64,000 nt of DNA from Ectothiorhodospira haloalkaliphila ATCC 51935 (lineage in GTDB: Bacteria > Pseudomonadota > Gammaproteobacteria > Ectothiorhodospirales > Ectothiorhodospiraceae), in contig NZ_KK214998.1 of NCBI RefSeq assembly GCF_000633935.1, forward strand, positions 410,046-474,045. The letters run 5' to 3'. The position numbers and the translations under genes are program-made. This document shows positions 629-17,378 of this stretch, piece by piece (position 1 is the stretch's first letter; the number at the start of each line of letters is the position of its first letter). The notes under the pieces are model-generated. The model was not told the DNA's origin and ran no database searches. It worked only from the letters and a program-made list of their open reading frames with translations.

Positions 629-1327
629 TCAGTTGTGTCGGCCATGATCGGTTTCCTCTCTCAGCCAGATATTGGCGGCCCTGCGGCCTCGGTTGTCGCG
701 CTTGTGCGGGATAGGCTCAGCGGCGGATGCCTCCAACCAGCGGTTGGCGTACTCCTTCAGCAGCTCGGCCCGGTCGCTGCGGCCCTGGACTCGAGCCAGG
801 ACGAACGTCCAATCGCCGTGAAGCATCGGCAGGTCTGCCAGCGGCCCGGGATCTTCGCGTTCTGGAGGAGGGGGTGGTTCGGGCGGTGAGGCCTCCCGGA
901 TCATCCCTTGCTGGAGGGCGTCGGCCACGGCCAGGTCGGCCAGGTCTGGGTTATCCGCCATGTCCTCGAGACAGTCCTCGGTGTACCAGTCGAGAGCGGA
1001 CTCGAGGCAGGCACCATGGCGGTCACAGGCAGCCTCCAGGCGCTGCCGGCCAACGGCTTTGGGGCATGCAACTTCCCCCGGAAACGATGCAACTTTTGGG
1101 GTGCTTTTTGAGGCCCCGAGTTGCATGGGTTGCTGGCCCTGAGTTGCGCTCGAGTTGCATGCGTGGTTGCGCTTTAATGCCTTGATTGCCAAGGCTTTGA
1201 GGCCTGTGGGTTGCACTGGAGTTGCATCGGTGGTTGCGCTCTCAGGGGTGGAAAGTTGCATGTTGCATCTACTAGGGGGTGCAACCATGCAACTCGAGGA
1301 GTTGCGGGGCGTGGTTTTGGCCATCAT
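629..1327 (-). CDS. Accessory protein of the integrated element, unknown function
   Basis: Predicted 232-residue protein that I do not recognise. It is the last gene of the leftward operon, and its ATG overlaps the end of the upstream AAA ATPase gene by 4 bp (ATGA), which supports translation. The N-terminal ~90 residues are low-complexity (Met-Gln-Leu, Ala-Thr-Pro and Cys-Asn stretches) because the DNA there is a dense array of GCAAC motifs. The middle has a proline run (PPEPPPPPE), and the C-terminal ~60 residues are charged, with aromatic residues. The stop codon lies 35 bp from the IS21 end, so the natural 3' end may have been altered by the insertion. The C-terminal half looks more protein-like than the N-terminal half. 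Confidence 0.5.
   Translation of the reverse strand: MMAKTTPRNSSSCMVAPPSRCNMQLSTPESATTDATPVQPTGLKALAIKALKRNHACNSSATQGQQPMQLGASKSTPKVASFPGEVACPKAVGRQRLEAACDRHGACLESALDWYTEDCLEDMADNPDLADLAVADALQQGMIREASPPEPPPPPEREDPGPLADLPMLHGDWTFVLARVQGRSDRAELLKEYANRWLEASAAEPIPHKRDNRGRRAANIWLREETDHGRHN
1066..1306. repeat. Array of 15 GTTGC/GCAAC motifs, helically phased (iteron-like)
   Basis: The pentamer starts at 1068, 1089, 1120, 1129, 1143, 1154, 1166, 1210, 1221, 1233, 1255, 1262, 1281, 1289 and 1301, in both orientations, most often as AGTTGCAT. Many spacings are 11-12, 21-22, 31 or 44 bp. A three-motif block (1143-1170) recurs 67 bp later (1210-1237). In the gene that overlaps the array the motif falls in all three codon frames, so it is kept at DNA level. 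It probably binds a protein; a replication origin or partition site is an inference. Confidence 0.6.
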
Positions 1328-2406
1328 TTGCGCCTCCCTCCCGACTGCTCAGCCGTCAAGAATCCTCCCTCCCTTGCCCTCCTGGCATGCCGCGAAACGG
1401 TGGACTTGTTCAACTCCAGCTCGGTCGCCACCTCGGCCTGAGAAAGCCCTTCGTTGAGGAGATCAACCACCTTGTCAAAGGTGCTCTCCTCCACAGTGCG
1501 AGTAACCCACGTCTGGCTCCCATCGGGGCCTGTGGTCAGGGTGGCCTCCAGGCTGCTCACGTCCTCCCCGAGAATGCCCCGGGCCTTCTCAAAGTGGATC
1601 TCGAAACAGGCGCCCTGCCTGGGGTCATAGTCCTGCGGACGGGAAAGCCTTATAGACGTGTCGAGCACGTCTTCCCGGCGACTGGTCCCGCGCTGCGCTC
1701 CCCCTTTGCCGGCATGGTGGATGAACAGCACAGACCGCCCCGCTGATCGTTGACGCAGTGCCCACGCTTGGGTGGTGCTCCAGCCATCAGCCTCGTTTTC
1801 GCGTGTCGCGGTGAGGGTGCTGATGTTGTCCACGACAATCAGCTTGTGCTCAGGGGCGAGGATGGCCTCGATTTCATCCTGACCCTGCGCGGAATCCAGG
1901 CGCGGCATCCCTTCGGGTTGCAGGTCGGGGGTGAGAATGTCGAAGGGTGCGGCGGCTTCGTGCTCAGCACTGGCCACGATGGCCGCCAGGCGCTCCTGCA
2001 TCGCCCCTGCGGGCATTTCTCCGTCAAGGTAGAGCACTCCCCTTGGCTCGGGCGCTCTCCATCCAAGGAAGTCCCCACCAGATGCCACGGCGTAGGCCAC
2101 CCCGAGGGCGAAGTGGGTCTTGCCGATGCCTCGCTGAGCAAAGACCATGCAAAGCCCCTGAGACGGCAGCCATGGCGTGAGGAGATTTTCCCGGGGCGGG
2201 AACTCCTGGGTCAGGAAGTCACGCAAGCCAATGAGTTTGACGGGGCGCCCGCGCTCATCCTCCAGCTCGGGCTGCGGCGCCTCCCGGCCTGCCGTCGGCA
2301 TGCGCACCACATGGTCATCCCCGTGGCGGCGCGGTGGACGTTTCCCTGCTTTGGCGCGCTCGACATACTCAGCCGCCAGGTCGAGGGGGTTCTTTTCAGA
2401 TCCCAT
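1324..2406 (-). CDS. RepA-like AAA ATPase / hexameric helicase with C-terminal HTH
   Basis: A 360-residue RecA/KaiC-fold ATPase of the RepA type found in IncQ plasmids, prophages and integrative elements, where it acts as a replicative helicase or helicase loader. The N-terminal ~80 residues are basic and probably flexible. Walker A is GIGKT in VFAQRGIGKTHFALG, preceded by LTPWLPSQGLCM. Walker B is KLIVVDNIS, and FIHHAGKGG looks like the family's later conserved histidine motif. The C-terminus has a helix-turn-helix (LSQAEVATELELNKSTVSRH), so the protein may also bind DNA, perhaps the motif array just downstream. It overlaps its neighbours by 4 bp (downstream) and 11 bp (upstream), an operon layout. 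The role as element replication ATPase is inferred. Confidence 0.8.
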   Translation of the reverse strand: MGSEKNPLDLAAEYVERAKAGKRPPRRHGDDHVVRMPTAGREAPQPELEDERGRPVKLIGLRDFLTQEFPPRENLLTPWLPSQGLCMVFAQRGIGKTHFALGVAYAVASGGDFLGWRAPEPRGVLYLDGEMPAGAMQERLAAIVASAEHEAAAPFDILTPDLQPEGMPRLDSAQGQDEIEAILAPEHKLIVVDNISTLTATRENEADGWSTTQAWALRQRSAGRSVLFIHHAGKGGAQRGTSRREDVLDTSIRLSRPQDYDPRQGACFEIHFEKARGILGEDVSSLEATLTTGPDGSQTWVTRTVEESTFDKVVDLLNEGLSQAEVATELELNKSTVSRHARRAREGGFLTAEQSGGRRK

Positions 2407-3018: not shown

Positions 3019-3225
3019 TCACCCCCCGGTAACGCATTGGCGGGTGTGCTCCTCGAGCCAGTCGTCCAGGTCGGTGACCCGGTAGCGGACGAATCGGCCC
3101 ACCTTCACGAACTTGGGGCCTCGCCCAAGACTGCGCCAGCAGGCAAGGGTCCGCTCGGTCGAGCGGACATAGGTCGCGGCCTCTTTGGGGTTGAGGACCG
3201 GGGTTTGCGCTTTCATAGCCATCAT
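3019..3225 (-). CDS. AlpA-like excisionase / transcription regulator
   Basis: 68-residue MerR-type winged-helix DNA-binding protein (HTH_17/AlpA family). The core LNPKEAATYVRSTERTLACW is the helix-turn-helix and PKFVKVGRFVRYRVTDLDDWLEEH is the wing plus terminal helix. Such proteins act as excisionases and as activators of integrase or early operons in P4-like satellites and genomic islands. It is the first gene of the leftward operon and sits about 400 bp downstream of the integrase gene on the same strand, the usual placement. Two ATGs are possible (3225 and 3219); the first is given. Confidence 0.85.
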   Translation of the reverse strand: MMAMKAQTPVLNPKEAATYVRSTERTLACWRSLGRGPKFVKVGRFVRYRVTDLDDWLEEHTRQCVTGG

Positions 3226-3633: not shown

Positions 3634-4908
3634 CTAGGTAGGCCTCCCGTCTTGTGGTGACCTGGCCTTGGCGGCCTGATCGGTGAACCAGTCGGCCAGT
3701 CGCTGCGCCTCGGGCCGGTAGCGGGTCAGGTCGATGGTGTCGTCGTAGTGCTCCATCCGTGTGCTCAACGCGGTGAACTGAGCGCCTTTGCGGTTCGCCA
3801 GCAGCTCGGCGGCCAGCGGATCCACTCCCACGGCGTTGACGCCATCAATCCAGGTTCTGCGCAGGTCATGCGGGGTGATGTGCATCCCGATGGCATTGCA
3901 GCCTGGGGCCATGCCGTCTCGGATCTCGCGGATGTGTCCCTGCCTGGCTCCCGAGAACAGCGCCGCGAAAGGAAAGTCCCCGCTCCCGGTGAGGGGTCGA
4001 AGATCCCGCAGCACCTCCACCACCTGGTCGGCAATCGGGAATGTCCTGGGTGATCGGTGCTTGGTGTCTGCAACATGCAGGGTTCCATCATCCAGATCCA
4101 CGTCCACCCACCTGCGCTCGAGTAAGTCCGCCAGGCGCAGCCCGGTGAGCATCAGCGCCATTGCTGCGCTGGCCTTGATGACGATGCCGGGATGGGAGTC
4201 GGGCGAAGTGCGCGCATCATCCAGTGCCGCCAGGAACGTACCCACCTTGTCCATCGGGATCCTGGTTCTTCGCCCTGGCACATCTCCGCGATACAGACCG
4301 GCATCCAGGATCACGTCCACAGGATTGTCGAGGAGCACATACTCCCCGCTCGGGCCTTTCGTCGTTGCGCGGGTGAATCGGAAGATGGCGGCGAGGATCC
4401 GCATGGCTTGGTTCGCCTGGGCCAGGCTGGCATCCGCAAGCTTCCCGTATCTCCTGGCCACCATGTCTCGGGTGATCTCCCGCAGGGGCAGGTCTTGCCA
4501 GTCCCCAAATGATCCACGGACATGCCGGCGAATGTCGGCCTGGGTGCGATCCGCAAGCGCCTTGCCATCCCTGCGGCGCTTGTTCCGACAGTAGTCCTCG
4601 GCGGCCTGGGCCAGTGTGGTGCCGAGAGCGGCCTCCCTGCGCTTTGTCTGGTTCGGATCCTCACCATCGGTCATCTGCACCAGTGCGGCCCGTGCCCGCT
4701 TGCGCGCCTCATCAGGCATCAGCACACCATAGCGGCCCAGCGTGACGCGCCTTACGGTCCTGTTCACCCGCCCTTGAGCGATGAACGACCGGGCGCCTTT
4801 CGCTGTCACGCGCAACCCGAATCCCGGCAGCCTGTCATCCCAGTACAGGGCCTGGCCGGATTCGGGGATGGGTGCCGACTCGATCGCCTTTTTGCTCCCG
4901 AGATTCAT
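3634..4908 (-). CDS. int: P4-type tyrosine recombinase (integrase)
   Basis: 424-residue site-specific recombinase that inserts and excises the element. The N-terminal DUF4102-type arm-binding domain (LYWDDRLPGFGLRVTAKGAR...) is followed by a core-binding domain (~95-200) and the catalytic domain. Catalytic residues visible are Arg258 (TGLRLADL), Lys283 (TKHRSP), His347 and Arg350 (HDLRRTW) and the probable nucleophile Tyr388 (MEHYDD). The usual second His/Trp before the tyrosine appears replaced (ELLANRKG). The gene starts about 140 bp from the tRNA-Gln 3' fragment, the expected distance from an attachment site. Length and domains look complete, so it is probably functional. Confidence 0.93.
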   Translation of the reverse strand: MNLGSKKAIESAPIPESGQALYWDDRLPGFGLRVTAKGARSFIAQGRVNRTVRRVTLGRYGVLMPDEARKRARAALVQMTDGEDPNQTKRREAALGTTLAQAAEDYCRNKRRRDGKALADRTQADIRRHVRGSFGDWQDLPLREITRDMVARRYGKLADASLAQANQAMRILAAIFRFTRATTKGPSGEYVLLDNPVDVILDAGLYRGDVPGRRTRIPMDKVGTFLAALDDARTSPDSHPGIVIKASAAMALMLTGLRLADLLERRWVDVDLDDGTLHVADTKHRSPRTFPIADQVVEVLRDLRPLTGSGDFPFAALFSGARQGHIREIRDGMAPGCNAIGMHITPHDLRRTWIDGVNAVGVDPLAAELLANRKGAQFTALSTRMEHYDDTIDLTRYRPEAQRLADWFTDQAAKARSPQDGRPT

Positions 4909-5049: not shown

Positions 5050-5096
5050 GGACTCTGACTCCGTCAACCCAGGTTCGAATCCTGGTCCCCCAGCCA
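5050..5096 (+). pseudogene. 3' fragment of tRNA-Gln(CUG): attachment site of the integrated element
   Basis: The 47 bp hold the anticodon loop CTCTGAC (anticodon CTG), the 3' anticodon stem, variable loop, a perfect T arm (CCAGG-TTCGAAT-CCTGG), acceptor strand TCCCCCA, discriminator G and encoded CCA. No matching 5' half lies upstream: the acceptor partner TGGGGGA and a D arm are absent at the expected distance. This is the duplicate 3' end left when an element inserts into a tRNA gene. The intact gene should flank the other end of the element, left of the window. Confidence 0.85.
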
Positions 5097-11400: not shown

Positions 11401-12276
11401 CAGACCACCCGGGCCATGCTGGGTCTGGAAGACCCGAGCCAGGTGGCGATCGTCCGCGATCCGGCCCAGGTGGAAGAGAACGGCGAGGCGGTGTTCTATT
11501 TCCCCGGCTGCGGCTCCGAGCGGCTGTTCAGCCAGGTGGGCCTGGCCACCCTGGCCATGCTCTATCGCACTGGCGCCCAGACCGTGCTGCCTCCGGGTTA
11601 CCTGTGCTGCGGCTATCCCCAGGAAGCCGCCGGTGACAAGGCCCGAGGGCGTGCCATCACCACCGAGAACCGGGTGCTGTTCCACCGGGTGGCCAACACC
11701 CTGAACTATCTGGACATCAAGACGGTGGTGGTGTCCTGCGGTACCTGCATGGATCAGTTGCTCAAGTACGAGTTCGAGCGTATCTTCCCCGGTTGCCGTC
11801 TGCTGGACATCCACGAGTATCTGATGGAGAAGGGCGTGAAGCTGGAGGGCGTGGAAGGGGTGCAGTATCTCTACCACGACCCCTGCCACAGCCCCATGAA
11901 GACCTACACCCCCACCGAGGTGGCCGGCGACCTTCTGGGTCAGCCCGTGACCCTGTCGGATCGCTGCTGTGGCGAGGCGGGCACCTTCGCGGTGAGTCGC
12001 CCGGACGTGGCCACCCAGGTGCGTTTCCGCAAGCAGGAGGAGATCCACAAGGGCGTCACCCAGCTCAGCGGCGAGCCCGTGGCCGTGGGCGGCAACGTGA
12101 AGATGCTCACCGCCTGCCCGGCCTGTCAGCAGGGCCTGTCCCGTTATCGTGAGGATACGGGGACGGAGACGGATTACATCGTCGTGGAGATGGCCAATGC
12201 CCTGATGGGCCAGAGCTGGCAGCAGGAGTTCATCCAGAAGGCGCGCAGCGGCGGGATCGAAAAAGTGCTTCTGTAA
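8431..12276 (+). CDS. Giant FAD-binding / 4Fe-4S / CCG-domain oxidoreductase (DUF3683 type)
   Basis: 1281-residue fusion related to D-lactate, glycolate and D-2-hydroxyglutarate dehydrogenases; probably oxidises a 2-hydroxy acid and passes electrons through Fe-S clusters to the quinone pool. An N-terminal ~170-residue domain is of the DUF3683 type. The FAD_binding_4 domain follows ([10 protein letters not shown] near residue 194), then the FAD-oxidase C domain ([23 protein letters not shown]). Two 4Fe-4S motifs follow: [11 protein letters not shown] near 813 and [12 protein letters not shown] near 875. Finally come two CCG cysteine-rich domains (FPGCG near 1026, CCGYPQ, SCGTCMD, HDPCHS near 1149, CCGEAG). 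In GlcDEF or LldEFG these parts are separate subunits. The ATG at 8431 is the first that gives family-like sequence; upstream residues come from repeats. Substrate is not determinable here. Confidence 0.9.
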
Positions 12277-12287
12277 CCAAAACCAAG

Positions 12288-12397
12288 AGCCCCTCTCCCC
12301 TAAGGGGAGAGGGGTTGGGGTGAGGGGAGGGCAAACCCGGCACCACGCCCGCCGCCGCCCCTCATCCCCGGCCCTTCTCCCCGGAGGGGAGAAGGGA
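12288..12397. repeat. Family A intergenic hairpin pair, copy 1
   Basis: CCCCTCTCCCC/GGGGAGAGGGG hairpin, a spacer, then CCCTTCTCCCC/GGGGAGAAGGG hairpin, bounded by CCCCTCA-type arms. It fills the gap between the FAD/Fe-S gene and uppP. Similar units occur at 15799, 28027, 28871, 52918 and 62949. Confidence 0.8.
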
Positions 12398-12432
12398 GTT
12401 TCATACCAACAACCAAGACAGCAGGATCCCAC

Positions 12433-13290
12433 ATGGCTCTATGGATAGCCGTGCTCCTGGGCATCATCCAGGGCGTGTTCATGTTCCTCCCCGTCAGTTC
12501 CACCGCCCACATGGTGCTGGCGGAACACTGGCTCATCGGCCGTGGGGAATCCCTGCCGCCACCGGACAGCCCGGAGATGATCCTGTTCGCCCTGGTGGTG
12601 CATGTGGGTACCCTGGTGTCCATCATCGTGGTCTTCTGGACCAGCCTGTGGCGCTTCACTCTGGGGGCCCTGGGCGGGGCCTGGCAGTGGGCAGGGCAGG
12701 GGGGGCGGGGGCCGGCGCCCCTGTACTGGCGCCTGTTCTGGCTGGGGATGTTCTCGGTGCTCTGCACCGGCCTGCTGGGCCTGGCCTTCAAGGCCGCCTT
12801 CGAGCAGATATTCGCCCATCCCTGGATGATCGCCATCACCCTCACCCTGACCGGCATCCTGCTGTGGTGGACGGATCGCCTGTCGCCGCGAAAGCGGGGC
12901 CTCAAGGGCATCAACTGGCGGGTGGCCGGGGTCATCGGTCTGGCCCAGGGGCTGGCCCTGATGCCGGGGCTGTCGCGCAGTGCCATGACCATCATGTTCT
13001 CCCTCTTCGCCGGCCTCAAGCGACGCTGGGCGGCGGAGTACAGCTTCTTCCTGGCCATCCCCACCATCTGCGCCGCCACGCTGGTGCAGGCCATCCAGGT
13101 CCATCGGGCCGACGAGCCCGTGGTCATCGGCCTGGCGCCCCTGGCGGTGGGCTTCGTGGTGGCGGCGGTGGTGGGGATCATCTCCCTGAAGCTGGTGATC
13201 TACTTCCTGTATCGGGCGCAGTTGAAGGTGTTCTCGTTCTACGTCTGGTTCCTGGCCCTGGCGGTGGCCATGGGGTGGCTGGGGGTATGA
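12433..13290 (+). CDS. UppP/BacA-family undecaprenyl-diphosphatase homologue with altered active site
   Basis: 285-residue polytopic membrane protein of the family that recycles undecaprenyl pyrophosphate to the lipid carrier for peptidoglycan and O-antigen synthesis. The first helix carries IIQGVFMFLPVSSTAHMV. E. coli BacA has glutamates at the positions occupied here by Gln13 and Met17 (EGLTEFLPVSSTGH), while Ser23 and His26 are kept. The second motif MPGLSRSAMT keeps the conserved arginine (Arg182). The overall fold and length match the family, so it is either a divergent active lineage or has changed function. No other family member is in the window. It stands alone, convergent with the DUF2905 gene. 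Confidence 0.85.
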   Translation: MALWIAVLLGIIQGVFMFLPVSSTAHMVLAEHWLIGRGESLPPPDSPEMILFALVVHVGTLVSIIVVFWTSLWRFTLGALGGAWQWAGQGGRGPAPLYWRLFWLGMFSVLCTGLLGLAFKAAFEQIFAHPWMIAITLTLTGILLWWTDRLSPRKRGLKGINWRVAGVIGLAQGLALMPGLSRSAMTIMFSLFAGLKRRWAAEYSFFLAIPTICAATLVQAIQVHRADEPVVIGLAPLAVGFVVAAVVGIISLKLVIYFLYRAQLKVFSFYVWFLALAVAMGWLGV

Positions 13291-13510: not shown

Positions 13511-14170
13511 TCACCTCAAGGTCCGAACGCCATCCTTCCCGCTCAGGATCAGCACGTCCGCCGGACGTCTGGCGAAGATCCCCACGGTGACCACCCCGGC
13601 GATCTGATTCAACTGACCCTCCAGCTCCACCGGGTTGGCGATGTGCAGGTTGTGGATGTCCAGGATCAGGTTGCCATTGTCGGTGGTGAAGCCCTGGCGC
13701 AGTTCCGGCTGACCGCCCATCTTCAGGATTTCCCGGGCCACAAAACTGCGGGCCATGGGGATGACTTCCACGGGTAGGGGAAAGGCCCCCAGCATGCCCA
13801 CCAGCTTGGATTCGTCGGCGATGCAGACGAACTTCTCGCTGGCCGCGGCGACGATCTTTTCCCGGGTGAGGGCGCCGCCGCCGCCCTTGATCAGGTGCAG
13901 GTGCTCGGTGGCCTCGTCGGCGCCGTCCACGTACAGGGGCAGCTGCCCGGCGCTGTTGAGGTCCATCACCGGGATGCCGTGCTTGCGCAGACGCTCGGCG
14001 CTCACCTCCGAGGAGGCCACCGTGCCCTCGATGCGGGCCTTCATGCCGGCCAGCAGGTCGATGAAGTGGTTGGCCGTGGAACCGGTGCCCACGCCCACGA
14101 TCATGTCGTCTTCCACGTATTGCAGGGCCGCTTCGGCGGCGGCCTTTTTCAGTTGGTCGGCATTGCTCAT
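13511..14170 (-). CDS. rpiA: Ribose-5-phosphate isomerase A
   Basis: 219-residue enzyme interconverting ribose 5-phosphate and ribulose 5-phosphate in the non-oxidative pentose phosphate pathway (and the Calvin cycle if present). Family motifs: [14 protein letters not shown] (phosphate loop), [21 protein letters not shown] (with the catalytic Asp) and [14 protein letters not shown]. Length equals the E. coli enzyme. It is divergent from ilvA with a ~100-bp gap. Confidence 0.96.
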
Positions 14171-14274
14171 GCTCGGGTCTCTCCTCTGGTTTTGTGAGGG
14201 GATTCTACGCAGGAGACGGGAGGATAAGCCAGCCCGCCTTGCGGCCCTTGAACCCCCCGCTGTATCTTGAGGGG

Positions 14275-15789
14275 ATGTCCTATCCCTACCTGCAGAAGAT
14301 CCTCACAGCCCGGGTCTACGATGTGGCGCGCGAAACGCCGCTGGACCCCATGCCCACCCTCACACGCCGCCTGGGTAACCAGATTCTGCTCAAGCGGGAA
14401 GACCTGCAACCGGTCTTCTCCTTCAAGCTGCGCGGCGCCTACCACAAGATCGTCAACCTCCCCAGGGAAGTCCGCGAAAAGGGGGTGATCTGTGCCTCGG
14501 CCGGCAACCATGCCCAGGGGGTGGCGCTGGCGGGGAAACGGTTGGGCATCAAGGCGGTGATCGTCATGCCCCAGACCACGCCCTCCATCAAGGTGGAAGC
14601 CGTGCGCGCCCTGGGTGGGGAGACCATCCTGCACGGGGATTCCTACGATGATGCCTACCAGCTCACCCAGGAGTTGATGGAAAAGCATGGCTACGCCTTC
14701 ATCCATCCCTTCGACGACCCGGATGTGATCGCAGGCCAGGGCACGGTGGCCATGGAACTGCTGCGCCAGCACCCCGACCCCCTGGACGCGGTGTTCATTC
14801 CCGTGGGTGGCGGTGGCCTGGCGGCGGGTATGGCGGTGTACATCAAGGCCCTGCGCCCGGACATCAAGGTGATCGGCGTGGAGCCCGAGGACGCCCCCTC
14901 CATGCACGATGCCCTGGAGAAGAAACGGCGCATCATCCTGGATCAGGTGGGCATCTTTGCCGACGGCGTGGCCGTGCGCCAGGCAGGCAAGGAGAATTAC
15001 CGGATCTGCCGGGAGCACATGGACGAGGTGATCCTGGTCACCACCGACGAGATCTGCGCCGCCACCAAGGATGTCTTTGACGACACCCGGGTGATGGCCG
15101 AGCCGGCCGGTGCCCTGTCGGTGGCAGGGCTCAAGAAATACATCGAGCGTGAGGGTGTGCGTGATGGCCGCTACGCGGCGGTGCTCAGCGGCGCCAACAT
15201 CAATTTCGATCGCCTGCGGCATGTGACCGAGCGGGCGGAGTTGGGTGAGCATCGGGAAGCCTTGTTCGCGGCCACGATTCCCGAGCGCCCCGGGAGCTTT
15301 CGCGCCTTCTGCGAGGCCATCGGCAAGCGCGGCATCACCGAGTTCAACTATCGCTATGCGGACCGGAACGAGGCCCATATCTTCGTGGGGGTGCAGCTCA
15401 GCGGCGGCGAGCCGGAGGGCCGGGCCCTGCTGGAGGACCTGCGGGCCAAGGGCTACCCCATCGAGGATCTGAGCGGCAACGAGATGGCCAAGGTGCACCT
15501 GCGCCACATGGTGGGCGGGCACGCCGGTCATGCGGGAGATGAGATGATCTACCGCTTCGAGTTTCCCGAGCGGCCGGGGGCGTTGATGCGTTTTCTGTCA
15601 CAAATGGGGCAGGACTGGAACATCAGTCTGTTCCACTACCGTAATCACGGGGCTGCCTACGGGCGGGTGCTGGTGGGCATCCAGGTCCCGCCCGGGGACA
15701 AGCAGCGGTTTCGGCGGTTCTTGAAGGAGCTGGGGTATACCCACTGGGAAGAAACGGAGAATCCGGTGTACCGGTTGTTCCTGGGTTGA
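14275..15789 (+). CDS. ilvA: Threonine ammonia-lyase, biosynthetic
   Basis: 504-residue PLP enzyme making 2-oxobutyrate from threonine, the first step of isoleucine synthesis. The PLP lysine lies in [11 protein letters not shown] near residue 50; NHAQGVA and the glycine loop [11 protein letters not shown] bind the cofactor phosphate. Two ACT-like regulatory domains (~325-405 and ~420-504; [14 protein letters not shown] and [14 protein letters not shown]) mediate isoleucine/valine control, the arrangement of E. coli IlvA rather than the catabolic TdcB. ATG 14275 is preceded by TTGAGGGG; the frame extends upstream without homology. Confidence 0.96.
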
Positions 15790-16233: not shown

Positions 16234-16365
16234 GGCAGGGCGCTCCCGGTTGCATCTGTCTGGCCCCGAACATGGCACGAGGCGCGGCACGATTCAACCA
16301 CGGGATTTGCCGGTCAATCGCCGCCTGAACTGGTCCGGTTGGAAACTTGTCCATACAATAAGCTC

Positions 16366-16641
16366 ATGAGGATCGACTTCGACCCATGCAAGAGCGAGCG
16401 GAATGCCAGGGAGCGTGGGTTACCATTCACGGCCGTGAAACATTTCGATTGGGAAAACGCGGTCTTCTGCGAAGATCAGCGCTTCGACTACCCCGAAATG
16501 CGTTTCATCGGTCTCGGCAAAATCGGGACGCGTGTGCATGTGGTGTGCTTTACGCCCGTTGAGGGCGGCATTCGCGTGACCAGCCGGAGAAAAGCCAACC
16601 CGCGGGAGGTGAGGCGCTATGAAAACGCCATTGACGGATAA
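16366..16641 (+). CDS. brnT: BrnT-family ribonuclease toxin
   Basis: 91-residue type II toxin (DUF497), an RNase of RelE-like fold that inhibits translation. Recognisable elements: the start MRIDFDPCKSERNARERGLPF, the conserved F-D-x-x-x-A pair (HFDWENAVFCEDQR), and the end VTSRRKANPREVRRYEN with the basic catalytic helix. ATG 16366 follows a TACAAT -10-like hexamer at 16354. Its 3' end overlaps the antitoxin gene by 23 bp, the usual toxin-first order of brnTA. It could be chromosomal or a relic of transfer; nothing mobile is seen beside it. Confidence 0.9.
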   Translation: MRIDFDPCKSERNARERGLPFTAVKHFDWENAVFCEDQRFDYPEMRFIGLGKIGTRVHVVCFTPVEGGIRVTSRRKANPREVRRYENAIDG

Positions 16642-16900
16642 GGACGGTGAGGTGCGGGAATTGACGGATGATGACGTGAGCCGGATGCGCCCTTTGAAAG
16701 AGGCTTTACCGGAAGCCCTGCAGCGCTCCATTGGCCAGCGGGGCCATCAGCGCAGACCCGCAAAAGTGAAGACCTCCATTCGTCTGTCACCAGAGGTGGT
16801 GGAGCATTTCAGGGCCGAAGGTCACGGCTGGCAAAGTCGTATAGACCAGGCACTCAAGCAGTACATTCAGGAGCATGGCGAAGGCAAAAGCCGTCCCTGA
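16619..16900 (+). CDS. brnA: BrnA-family antitoxin
   Basis: 93-residue partner that neutralises BrnT and represses the operon. The N-terminal part is charged and probably binds the toxin; the C-terminal ribbon-helix-helix is KTSIRLSPEVVEHFRAEGHGWQSRIDQALKQYI, typical of BrnA. It overlaps brnT by 23 bp, so the two are translationally coupled. The assignment rests on both the domain and the pairing. Confidence 0.9.
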   Translation: MKTPLTDKDGEVRELTDDDVSRMRPLKEALPEALQRSIGQRGHQRRPAKVKTSIRLSPEVVEHFRAEGHGWQSRIDQALKQYIQEHGEGKSRP

Positions 16901-16916
16901 TGCCCACCCAAAGCTT

Positions 16917-17378
<462 letters not shown>

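Follow-up and report, generated by a model that had tools for sequence, protein, structure and literature searches.

Directly behind the repA gene of a small satellite-like integrative element lies an array of 15 copies of the pentamer GTTGC/GCAAC, which is probably the iteron origin of replication of this element and would be read by the helix-turn-helix (HTH) domain of the element's own RepA helicase. The analysed stretch of DNA, 64 kb in length and in the following called the window, belongs to contig C4 of a genome of 3.45 Mb. The array occupies 238 bp (1068 to 1305, minus strand) and has sites on both strands, at positions 1068, 1089, 1120, 1129, 1143, 1154, 1166, 1210, 1221, 1233, 1255, 1262, 1281, 1289, and 1301; when read in the direction of repA, most copies have the orientation GCAAC. 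The number of copies had been noted before by inspection of the window, and the recount confirmed it. In dinucleotide shuffles of the array region (n = 2000), the mean was 1.3 copies and the maximum 6, and none of the 2000 shuffles reached 15, which rules out chance or base composition as the source of the array. The rest of the 64-kb window contains at most 4 copies in any 240 bp, and in a scan of the whole own genome for three neighbouring GTTGC, the array in the window was the sole match.

Within the array, a block of three sites (1143/1154/1166) recurs exactly 67 bp further on (1210/1221/1233), as originally predicted; the two blocks together extend from 1143 to 1237 (plus strand) and have internal spacings of 11-12 bp. 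The largest gap between iterons (1171 to 1209) is a possible melting region. Its AT content of 49% differs weakly from the 44% of the array in the window; in relatives, the comparable gap exceeds the AT level of its locus in 45 of 57 cases.

Place behind repA, phasing, and the four-site core

The repA gene (1324 to 2406, minus strand) encodes a protein of 360 aa, assigned by profile and fold to the RecA-fold hexameric helicases of the RSF1010 RepA type and extended by an HTH at its C-terminus. The stop codon of the gene and the start of an ORF of 232 aa (629 to 1327, minus strand) overlap, and the translation of the array makes up the N-terminal third of this ORF. About 100 related repA loci were gathered from genomes and from IMG/VR (genome searches at family and at order level gave an identical set of 47 genomes), and 104 were usable for counting the densest word. 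Among hexamers lying at most a few hundred bp from the repA stop, the densest attains at least 8 copies in 52 of these 104 loci, as against 5 of 104 elsewhere in the same loci. In the 57 array-bearing loci, the array starts at a median of +12 and ends at +228 from the repA stop. The position behind repA is conserved across the relatives, whereas the word is varied: GTTGC, GTCCC, GTCGC, GTTTCC, GTTTAC, GGACCA, TGAATCA, and GTAATCA are found, as well as GGTTGTA, GGTTAA, GTGAGAA, CATTTCA, GTGTAC, GTGTTCA, and others. By the word test, roughly half of the loci lack a strong array; 30 of these keep the HTH, and some possess the core described below only. Concerning plasmids, two weak tblastn matches were the only relatives obtained and none was found by DNA, and phage records likewise yielded weak matches only. 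In one viral contig (L065), 25 copies of CAGTCG are situated within 300 bp around position 2701, far from repA.

The spacing of the sites had been interpreted as helical phasing. In the window alone, this holds in part (z of 2.7 at 11 bp and of 3.6 at 11.5 bp), and spacings of 7, 8, 9, and 14 bp are also present; over all relatives, the phasing is strong, with a period peak of the pooled loci at 11 bp (z 12.9) and a z of 6.7 in the 19 loci with less than 45% identity in the body of the protein. Neighbouring sites on the same strand are 7-9, 11-12, or 21-23 bp apart in these relatives. Many phased direct copies of one word, as they characterize an iteron origin, are what the loci contain.

Besides the phased repeats, the relatives have a dyad of four sites in common. 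In the window, this core (1255 to 1293) consists of a direct pair (1255 and 1262), a centre (1267 to 1280, CCCCCTAGTAG on the minus strand), and an inverted pair (1281 and 1289). A core of this kind, with the sites of the direct pair 7-9 bp apart, is found near the repA stop in 45 of 99 loci, compared to 14 of 1026 control windows. Its centre is CCCTAG(g) or close to it, with CTAG in 15 of the 45 cores (background, 1.5% per 16 nt), and it is much alike in loci with GTTGC, GTCGC, GTCCC, GTTTC(A/C), and TTCTCA, such that the four sites vary while the middle is constant. An RNA hairpin formed from the core was set aside as an explanation, since the iterons beyond the core are mostly direct repeats that lack an inverted counterpart. 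The repA locus of a chlamydial MAG (L006, 5911-5951) exhibits the minimal core only (TTCCGATTTTCCGATT...AATCGGAA), without a longer array.

The core was also used as a query in its own right: three patterns composed of words only, with genes ignored, were run against IMG/VR and returned 28 contigs, 7 of which were already in the set. In 6 of the 21 new contigs, an ORF of the RepA family lies on the right strand and ends 52-157 bp ahead of the core, and the helices in new contigs include NKSTITR beside GTTGC and GKSTVSR beside GTCCC. No clear RepA gene is situated beside the core in 15 of the 21. Cores of GTTGC or GTCCC without an adjoining gene of the RepA family are those of L119, L121, L122, L124, L128, L130, L131, L133, and L140, and several of the cores in RepA-less viral contigs carry a centre resembling CTAG or TATAG. 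In such contigs, the same kind of site may be used by another initiator.

Place and core bear on the question whether the array, although bound by RepA, could instead act in the control of copy number, in handcuffing or incompatibility, or in operon autoregulation, while the element replicates from an origin at another of its sites. Arrays on iteron plasmids often have such control roles, and the array studied here coincides with the operon's 3' end and with the beginning of the gene that follows. However, it is situated at that 3' end and hence away from the promoter, it includes a dyad core with a conserved centre, and in most loci no second dense cluster was seen near repA; its place furthermore matches that of the SaPI and PICI origins (PMC6092414, PMC7581432). 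A control site of this kind is unlikely on balance, though it is the alternative to be taken most seriously.

RepA and the variation of the iteron word

The classification of RepA is based on several comparisons. Against Pfam, it matches AAA_25 (E 7.8e-29), and its profile against PDB finds RSF1010 RepA (1g8y, E 1.6e-9). With the AlphaFold model (pLDDT 87, pTM 0.81) as a query, the four best Foldseek matches are RSF1010 RepA (1g8y/1nlf/1olo; E 1.2e-12, TMt 0.74). Given this best match both in sequence and in predicted fold, RepA falls into the RSF1010 RepA helicase family. In the model, the RecA-fold part is followed by a C-terminal three-helix HTH (residues 305-346; 1369 to 1494, minus strand), in which residues 334-346 (1369-1407, minus strand) constitute the predicted recognition helix.

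The residues of this helix and the iteron word co-vary among relatives. Helices of the type NK/HK/NR-S-x-V/I-S-R are paired mostly with GTTGC, those with SKS followed by V/I/A-N/H/A/G-R with GTCCC, SQ-x-x-V-N-R with TGATTC, and DR[SA]TVYR with TGTCGC, while SKG or TKG-x-V-S-K is paired with GTTTCC and the same helix ending in R with GTTTAC. Three proteins with bodies of 25-32% identity combine SKG[QY]VSK or TKGQVSK with GGAAAC, and two with bodies 29% identical combine SKGYVSR/TKGMVSR with GTAAAC. The common GGAAAC in distant proteins of the SKG/TKG-VSK type suggests convergence or exchange of an HTH-iteron module.

Over 56 loci, similarity of the motif and similarity of the helix are correlated (r 0.43), also when the identity of the ATPase body is taken into account (partial r 0.34, permutation p 0.0005), and in pairs with bodies 55-90% identical r amounts to 0.82. 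Motif similarity is likewise correlated with the identity of the ATPase body given the helix (partial r 0.37), such that common descent accounts for part of the pattern. In a scan of 262 usable RepA columns in which the HTH was not singled out, S338, R339, and T336 rank first, third, and fourth. As far as can be judged from sequence comparison, the iteron word tracks the residues of the RepA recognition helix; concerning the binding by an initiator that belongs to an iteron origin, it is this co-variation of word and helix that was observed. Moreover, the HTH is present in 54 of 55 array-positive loci and in 30 of 44 array-negative ones (Fisher p 3e-5).

These results also make it rather improbable that the array is bound by another protein of the element, either the AlpA-like or the 232-aa protein, and merely adjoins repA. 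The element does encode an AlpA-like HTH protein, yet the word co-varies with the recognition helix of RepA, the presence of the array goes along with the RepA HTH, and a frame through the array is missing in about half of the loci. More improbable still is that the ATPase binds the array for partition, as a centromere-like site, or for plasmid maintenance, as phased repeats adjoining an ATPase gene might indicate: the ATPase is a RecA-fold hexameric helicase with 1g8y as its best match and not ParA or ParM, no conserved partner gene follows directly downstream, and 28 of 57 arrays are not traversed by an open frame. Partition of the ParA type was rejected on the grounds that the ATPase is similar to RepA helicases by both profile and fold.

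The original prediction had left origin and partition or binding array side by side and placed either in an integrative element. The iteron-type array it proposed is borne out by the fixed place behind repA, the 11-bp phasing, the core, and the co-variation of word and HTH, and from these we infer that the array is bound by RepA and that it serves as an origin, not as a site of partition or control. According to this origin reading, the HTH of RepA would read the word GTTGC, RepA units would align on one face of the helix in 11-bp steps, and the dyad core around CCCTAG would set two RepA assemblies head to head. The DNA would open in or near the core or in the AT-richer gap, with RepA being loaded on both sides, and the primase-like neighbour and host enzymes would then begin synthesis.

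Beyond the single array, the comparisons support a family of RepA-HTH/iteron pairs with apparently changing specificity. A wider proposition, for which the chances appear evenly divided, is that a RecA-fold helicase of the RSF1010 class acts as its own initiator: its HTH would read the iterons behind its gene, the CCCTAG dyad would load two rings head to head, and lineages would re-code a few residues of the helix and all iterons together, giving rise to many incompatible replicons and to a natural HTH-DNA code. Such a replicon would be compact and widespread, with origin and initiator matchable from sequence alone. The more than 50 HTH-iteron pairs constitute a dataset for learning and testing a recognition code, the system would be a simple model of self-loading by a RecA-fold helicase that has no separate initiator, and it would aid in finding and delimiting satellites and integrative elements in genomes.

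The reading frame through the array

Since the array is part of an ORF, it had been argued from the distribution of the motif over the codon frames that selection acts on DNA and not on protein. The motif indeed occurs in all three codon phases of ORF 629-1327 (6/5/4). An alignment of relatives, which had been put forward as a check, agrees with this claim, in that motif and spacing persist and the bases in between change. Compared to the nearest relative found, Ectothiorhodospira lacustris (L003; RepA 80% identical), 1 of 75 motif bases differs, as against 76 of 188 others, and motif columns are 99% identical versus 54% for other columns. At third codon positions within the motif, none of 24 differs. 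At non-motif positions of the array, 27 of 63, 21 of 62, and 28 of 63 differ at codon positions 1, 2, and 3, respectively; since these differences are even across codon positions, the protein in the array part appears to be almost unconstrained. In six further relatives with GTTGC, 80-93% of the motif columns and 32-51% of the other columns are identical. The alignment leans on the motifs themselves, but copy order, orientation, and spacing are visibly kept. Close relatives have an open frame through the array as well, and in 28 of the 57 array-bearing relatives no such frame exists. With the motif kept at all codon positions and the frame absent in these 28, selection on DNA is supported.

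The C-terminus of the same ORF is conserved and matches phrog_852 and phrog_31018 (function unknown). This part (629-760 in the window, WLEASAAEPIPHKRDNRGRRAANIWLRE) is conserved in E. lacustris and in other relatives, unlike the array part, which varies as protein.

That constraint on the protein, with its repetitive N-terminus (NAT/MQL/VA), produced the repeats as a by-product, as the position of the array inside an ORF that is open also in close relatives might suggest, is scarcely credible and was rejected, given the occurrence in three codon phases, the invariant third positions, the missing codon-position bias outside the motif, the lack of a frame in about half of the relatives, and the unrelated words carried by others.

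The island and its comparison with known systems

The element that carries the array measures 11.9 kb, as delimited by a duplicated 29-bp 3' end of tRNA-Gln and the intact tRNA-Gln at its left end. The right repeat (5068 to 5096, plus strand; G000:C4:415113-415141) is identical to G000:C4:403187-403215. From the right end, the genes are arranged in the order integrase (tyrosine type with an Arm-DNA-bind_3 domain; 3634 to 4908), AlpA/excisionase-type HTH protein (3019 to 3225), a 61-aa protein, a primase-like protein of 145 aa (2396 to 2833), and repA, with the array in the start of the 232-aa ORF; all genes with coordinates given here are on the minus strand. The neighbours are those named in the original prediction, i.e., a RepA-type ATPase with a C-terminal HTH and a primase-like protein, whose similarity is to the N-terminal part of a phage primase (phrog_6088, E 3e-5). 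We take the latter to resemble the zinc-ribbon N-terminus of phage primases with the usual cysteines replaced, as judged by eye.

Farther left, the island contains an IS21 copy, a DUF5131 protein, a ProQ-domain protein, HTH proteins, a DUF1441 gene, and a head protein. The IS21-type element (istA-like ORF and istB, matching IstB_IS21; 3-488 in the window, 16269-17046 in locus L115) separates repA and the array from the left half of the island, and the terminal part of L115 is masked (N). Within L115, the major head protein and a DUF1441/terminase-small-subunit-like gene are situated at 11857-12975 and 13677-14216, and a ProQ/FinO-domain RNA-chaperone gene at 14820-15476. The head protein is of the Phage_capsid_4 or Mu-like gpT type (PF25209, E 1.7e-24); large terminase, portal, or tail genes were not seen among the element proteins scanned. 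The island has the appearance of either a reduced prophage or a phage satellite, possibly a capsid-encoding one. Its size and its integrase, AlpA-like, primase-like, and repA genes together with the array correspond to the layout of a PICI; because a structural (head) gene is present, and PICIs are characterized by the lack of phage structural genes (PMC6092414), it was not filed as a classical PICI.

Concerning replication, the origin of SaPIs and Gram-negative PICIs directly follows the initiator gene on its 3' side and has two sets of iterons flanking an AT-rich stretch, and the rep plus ori of these elements replicates a plasmid (PMC6092414). For SaPIs, binding by the initiator helicase occurs via the C-terminal domain (Ubeda et al. 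2007, cited in PMC7581432). The element described here is similar in having iterons directly 3' of a helicase gene in an element of satellite size (theirs being roughly 12-15 kb). The initiators differ according to their descriptions, those of SaPIs and PICIs being Rep or Pri-Rep (in SaPIs, relatives of Cch2), whereas an RSF1010-RepA-type helicase with a small HTH is found here; in the available parts of these descriptions, neither the four-site CCCTAG core nor the range of words was found (PMC6092414, PMC7581432). In SCCmec, the C-terminal domain of Cch2 binds AAGTG iterons downstream of its own gene (PMC7581432). Cch2 is likewise a helicase with 5-nt direct repeats downstream of its gene, the binding being predicted in the present case; it is, however, a relative of SaPI Rep, is discussed with the D5 helicase family, and has three iterons only, without an 11-bp phased array (PMC7581432).

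The RSF1010 (IncQ) system comprises RepA, RepB', and RepC, with a separate RepC reading the oriV iterons (PMC4234260). It shares with the element iterons and a RepA helicase that agrees in fold and family. Unlike in RSF1010, a single protein is both helicase and probable reader here, and of the element proteins that were compared with Pfam and PHROGs, none gave a RepC-like match. RepA- or DnaB-type helicases with winged-helix domains are described for PrimPol families of integrative elements and phages, where they are fused to the primase; an iteron partner or a specificity code was not found in the available part of that description (PMC5862659). A paper on a helper-satellite pair of Pseudomonas AH14 (PMC4936722) mentions neither RepA nor iterons.

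In the searchable literature, outside of which most subscription papers lie, the precedents of SaPI, PICI, and SCCmec were found and an RSF1010-type RepA-HTH version was not; this version, its core, and its varied specificities appear to be undescribed there. The four-word core presumably resembles the origin of SV40 T-antigen, with four GAGGC in two inverted pairs and a double hexamer, which is regarded as a lead only; T-antigen belongs to an unrelated helicase superfamily and to a eukaryotic virus. Rep proteins with iterons just downstream of their genes are already known from SaPI, PICI, and SCCmec, in each case with other helicases.
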